NCBI RefSeq assembly: GCF_016865365.1
Contig: NZ_AP024469.1
Span: 434,001 to 498,000 of the forward strand
Length of the DNA: 64,000 nt
Direction of reading: 5' to 3'
Source of the DNA: Geobacter sp. SVR
Lineage (GTDB): Bacteria; Desulfobacterota; Desulfuromonadia; Geobacterales; Pseudopelobacteraceae
Shown: positions 46,413-46,492 of the stretch, piece by piece
Numbering within the stretch: the first letter of the stretch is position 1
Layout: every line of letters starts with the position of its first letter
Position numbers and translations under genes: made by a program
Notes under the pieces: generated by a model
Databases searched by the model: none
Seen by the model: only the letters and a program-made list of their open reading frames with translations
What the model was told of the DNA's origin: nothing

Positions 46413-46447
46413 AAAAAACTCCTGCCCTCGGTTTCAAGAGCAGGAGT
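46413..46447 (-). terminator. Expression-platform terminator of the fluoride riboswitch
   Basis: On the minus strand ACTCCTGC (46447-46440) pairs with GCAGGAGT (46425-46418), followed by a run of T (A-run 46413-46418). The 5' arm contains the ACTCC that forms the aptamer pseudoknot, so the two structures exclude each other. Confidence 0.85.
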
Positions 46448-46492
46448 CATCAGCTTGCGGGCAAGCGGTTATGGCGAACTCCATCGCCGTTG
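46440..46492 (-). ncRNA. Fluoride riboswitch (crcB motif)
   Basis: On the minus strand the aptamer reads GGCGATGGAGTTCGCC (46488-46473), then ATAACC, a short hairpin GCTTGC-CC-GCAAGC, then CTGATGACTCC (46453-46443). The stem GGCGA/TCGCC encloses TGGAGT, and loop GGAGT (46482-46478) is complementary to ACTCC (46447-46443), the pseudoknot of the fluoride aptamer. The conserved GGCGATGG and CTGATG blocks match the known consensus. Binding of fluoride should prevent the downstream terminator and turn on eno-HAD-PAP2-crcB-DUF190. Confidence 0.92.

Follow-up and report, generated by a model that had tools for sequence, protein, structure and literature searches.

Does the short element at 46413–46492 on the minus strand of a 64,000-nucleotide stretch of the Geobacter sp. 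SVR genome (the window) act as a fluoride riboswitch, and do its aptamer and its terminator compete for one strand? The first-pass annotation had read it as a complete, minimal on-switch in which ACTCC serves both structures. In fluoride riboswitches, the pseudoknot tract belongs to both the aptamer and the expression platform and is also the base of the terminator (PMC11077080). In the Bacillus cereus switch, the intrinsic terminator is disrupted when fluoride binds (PMC8752731), and a covariation model of the whole switch, covering aptamer and terminator with their conserved overlap, is available from large sequence sets (PMC13273304). The elements of the switch in the window are as follows.

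46504..46532, minus strand: putative sigma-70-like promoter TTGACA-17-TATCTT (consensus scan, 10/12 matches)
46434..46497, minus strand: fluoride riboswitch aptamer, RF01734 (cmscan, 60.3 bits)
46443..46447, minus strand: shared strand ACTCC, the 3' pseudoknot strand and the first five bases of the terminator 5' arm (sequence; three-strand covariation in relatives)
46413..46447, minus strand: intrinsic terminator with a 13-bp stem, AAAC loop and T-run (fold energy, shuffles, terminator scan)

The first-pass annotation had asked for a covariance search with the Rfam crcB model. When all Rfam families were searched with cmscan, RF01734 was the only family that reached its gathering score within the 64-kb window. 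It matched at 46497–46434 over its full length (model positions 1–64) with 60.3 bits, well above the gathering score of 34 (E 3.1e-14). Matches to beta_tmRNA and M23 (E 0.03–0.8) were far under their own gathering scores and were rejected as chance; the beta_tmRNA match sits on the riboswitch itself. The whole 4.7-Mb genome contains one fluoride riboswitch. From 46497 the minus strand reads AAAACCAACGGCGATGGAGTTCGCCATAACCGCTTGCCCGCAAGCTGATGACTCCTGCTCTTGAAACCGAGGGCAGGAGTTTTTTC. GGCGATGG starts at 46488, and ACTCC (46447–46443) comes after CTGATG. The aptamer loop strand GGAGT pairs with ACTCC at 5/5 positions, forming the pseudoknot.

The terminator occupies 46447–46418 and reads ACTCCTGCTCTTG-AAAC-CGAGGGCAGGAGT, and the T-run after its stem extends to 46413. 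It begins at the first base of ACTCC, so the expression platform is of the transcriptional type. Taken alone, the terminator folds with −21.5 kcal/mol (z −6.1), and 0 of 200 shuffles were equally stable. When the whole element was folded with a program that does not draw pseudoknots, the terminator prevailed and took up the pseudoknot strand, which is the outcome expected in the absence of fluoride. Upstream, the promoter consensus scan found one match against 0.2 expected in shuffles, and this predicted promoter would put the transcription start at about 46497. Thus every element that had been named (GGCGATGG, GGAGT, CTGATG, ACTCC, terminator and T-run) lies where it had been placed on the minus strand, and the switch is complete, with full-model aptamer, pseudoknot, terminator and T-run. 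To call it minimal is fair but nothing special, since this is the standard architecture. The span that had been given starts correctly at the end of the T-run (46413) and stops short at 46492, as the Rfam aptamer reaches 46497.

The shared strand was also examined in relatives. The host-family sample comprised 76 genomes, most likely Geobacteraceae. RF01734 gave a match in 23 of them, and in 20 the match was above the cut-off; host-family matches of 24–26 bits (L024–L026, L030, L031) were under the gathering score and were set aside. A chance inverted repeat mimicking a riboswitch is so improbable as to be negligible: the covariance search already refutes it (aptamer E 3e-14), no shuffle matched the stability of the terminator, and the same element scores above the cut-off in those 20 genomes.

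Aptamers were located by pattern in the fetched loci, and the best terminator-like hairpin was sought in the next 110 bases without imposing any overlap with the pseudoknot strand. Eight rows were removed as pattern accidents (e.g. second registers, or stretches without an aptamer) and 75 aptamers were kept; all counts are of sequences, not of independent events. In 42 of the 75, three or more bases of the pseudoknot strand are part of the terminator. For all 21 pattern-located aptamers of the host family, the terminator begins with the first or second nucleotide of that strand, and the same holds for 5/5 loci of the same order. Among more distant members of the phylum, 16/49 have a shared strand; the others have a separate downstream hairpin or none that was found. 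Since pseudoknot strands hardly vary within the host family, the phylum was sampled for covariation. Six distant phylum loci carry a GAAGT loop, an ACTTC pseudoknot strand and a GAAGT terminator 3' arm. Such a coordinated change of three strands would be expected if two exclusive structures used one strand, and it supports the dual role that had been assigned to ACTCC.

Some relatives carry more than one copy of the riboswitch. Genome G073 has two on the same strand, separated by about 3.6 kb (L109, at 8313 and 11906), and G002 has three on separate contigs; a further riboswitch coordinate was listed at L118:4895. A strict aptamer pattern applied near 80 enolase loci of named genomes returned none. 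This pattern was over-strict, as it missed L161, which is the same stretch as the aptamer-bearing L103.

Five genes follow the riboswitch on the same strand, in this order.

45069..46352, minus strand: eno, the second enolase of the genome (TIGR01060 689.7 bits; PF00113, PF03952)
44585..45088, minus strand: small HAD-superfamily protein resembling a P-type ATPase P-domain (PF08282; weak TIGR01511/TIGR01494)
43817..44584, minus strand: PAP2-superfamily membrane phosphatase (PF01569, 4e-24)
43443..43811, minus strand: crcB, Fluc fluoride channel (PF02537, 9e-28; TIGR00494 above cut-off)
43076..43429, minus strand: DUF190/COG1993 protein, PII-like (PF02641, 2e-39)

These genes form a fluoride-resistance operon and, by analogy with the riboswitch family, are probably transcribed as one unit. 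The crcB gene is the only copy in the genome. The eno reading frame is open from ATG 46370, and ATG 46352 is preferred, with AAGGGGG just before it. Riboswitch, crcB and DUF190 are a recurrent core in many members of the host family; homologues of both HAD and PAP2 join it at L102, L111 and L118, HAD at L100 and PAP2 at L109. HAD proteins are frequently linked to fluoride riboswitches (PMC11139923), and homologues of the small HAD protein recur in host-family fluoride riboswitch operons. Two ORFs (48505–49634), some 2 kb away from the promoter of the riboswitch, look like the orfA and orfB pair of an IS3-type transposase.

The locus is almost certainly a standard fluoride riboswitch that acts on transcription. 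This reading follows from the RF01734 score, the stability of the terminator and a promoter at the right distance; from the crcB fluoride channel and enolase, a fluoride-sensitive enzyme, downstream; and from a shared strand that is kept in the host family and covaries in distant phylum loci. We found no evidence against it at the locus. Fluoride binding, switching and its direction we infer by analogy. RNA polymerase would start near 46497, and the aptamer would fold first. With fluoride and magnesium bound, the GGAGU-ACUCC pseudoknot would be held and the first five terminator bases withheld, and polymerase would read through into eno-HAD-PAP2-crcB-DUF190. Without fluoride, the terminator 3' arm would take the place of the loop strand on ACUCC, and polymerase would terminate at the T-run.

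In one assay of 1901 natural fluoride riboswitch sequences with E. coli polymerase, only 323 proved functional (PMC13273304), and thus function in vitro cannot be presumed. The aptamer might accordingly have decayed and lost fluoride binding, leaving the terminator as a plain attenuator or as the end of upstream transcription. That most natural variants failed to switch in that assay speaks for such decay, but 60.3 bits across the full model, a promoter directly upstream, an intact shared strand and an intact operon make it very unlikely here.

The second enolase under riboswitch control is a modest extra beyond the standard switch. Enolase is often present in operons of the fluoride riboswitch type, according to a review (PMC11139923). 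The other enolase of this genome (G000:C1:2255072-2255923) is 76% identical to the operon enolase, and both congeners examined have one enolase only. In the trees, the operon enolase falls outside all sampled housekeeping enolases of the host family, at the base of the Desulfuromonadales group, and because of this position a recent duplication within the genus does not appear to be its origin. Its catalytic motifs are intact, and no substitutions pointing to fluoride resistance were seen in it. One might speculate that this diverged copy is less fluoride-sensitive than the housekeeping copy and that under fluoride the cell would switch from one enolase to the other instead of just raising the amount, which we consider rather unlikely.

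Strongly diverged enolases of a different type lie near a fluoride riboswitch in four other host-family genomes (G054, L100:4392-5663; G007, L101:5170-6444; G002, L102:13075-14364; G051, L103:4374-4874) and are 54–61% identical to the enolase in the window. The three full-length ones group in a single long-branched clade and have changes in common at sites that are conserved elsewhere, including V317T, G318A and F322T, next to the conserved DD motif (positions counted in the window ORF opened at 46370). They are candidate fluoride-adapted enolases. Contig 43 of G051 has an enolase at 2032–3315.

The shared-strand mechanism is already established in the literature, and the locus adds one complete, ordinary example: a clean further case of a well-understood riboswitch. 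It would be of some interest to learn whether the enolase copies induced by fluoride are plain spares or less fluoride-sensitive, and a cell with both copies is a convenient place to test this. Similar to the Bacillus cereus crcB archetype (RF01734), the Geobacter switch has the same aptamer, the same pseudoknot and a pseudoknot strand that is the terminator base (PMC11077080, PMC8752731), and it controls the same kind of genes. The inner terminator stem and the loop sequence differ, which is normal, and nothing substantial sets the two apart. In Enterobacter cloacae FRM, the fluoride operon is ppaC-uspA-eno-gpmA-crcB-orf5249, and its eno transcripts rise about 176-fold with fluoride (PMC5533749). 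Both organisms have a fluoride riboswitch ahead of an extra enolase and crcB, but the partners differ, being ppaC, uspA and gpmA in E. cloacae FRM and the HAD protein, the PAP2 phosphatase and DUF190 in Geobacter sp. SVR.
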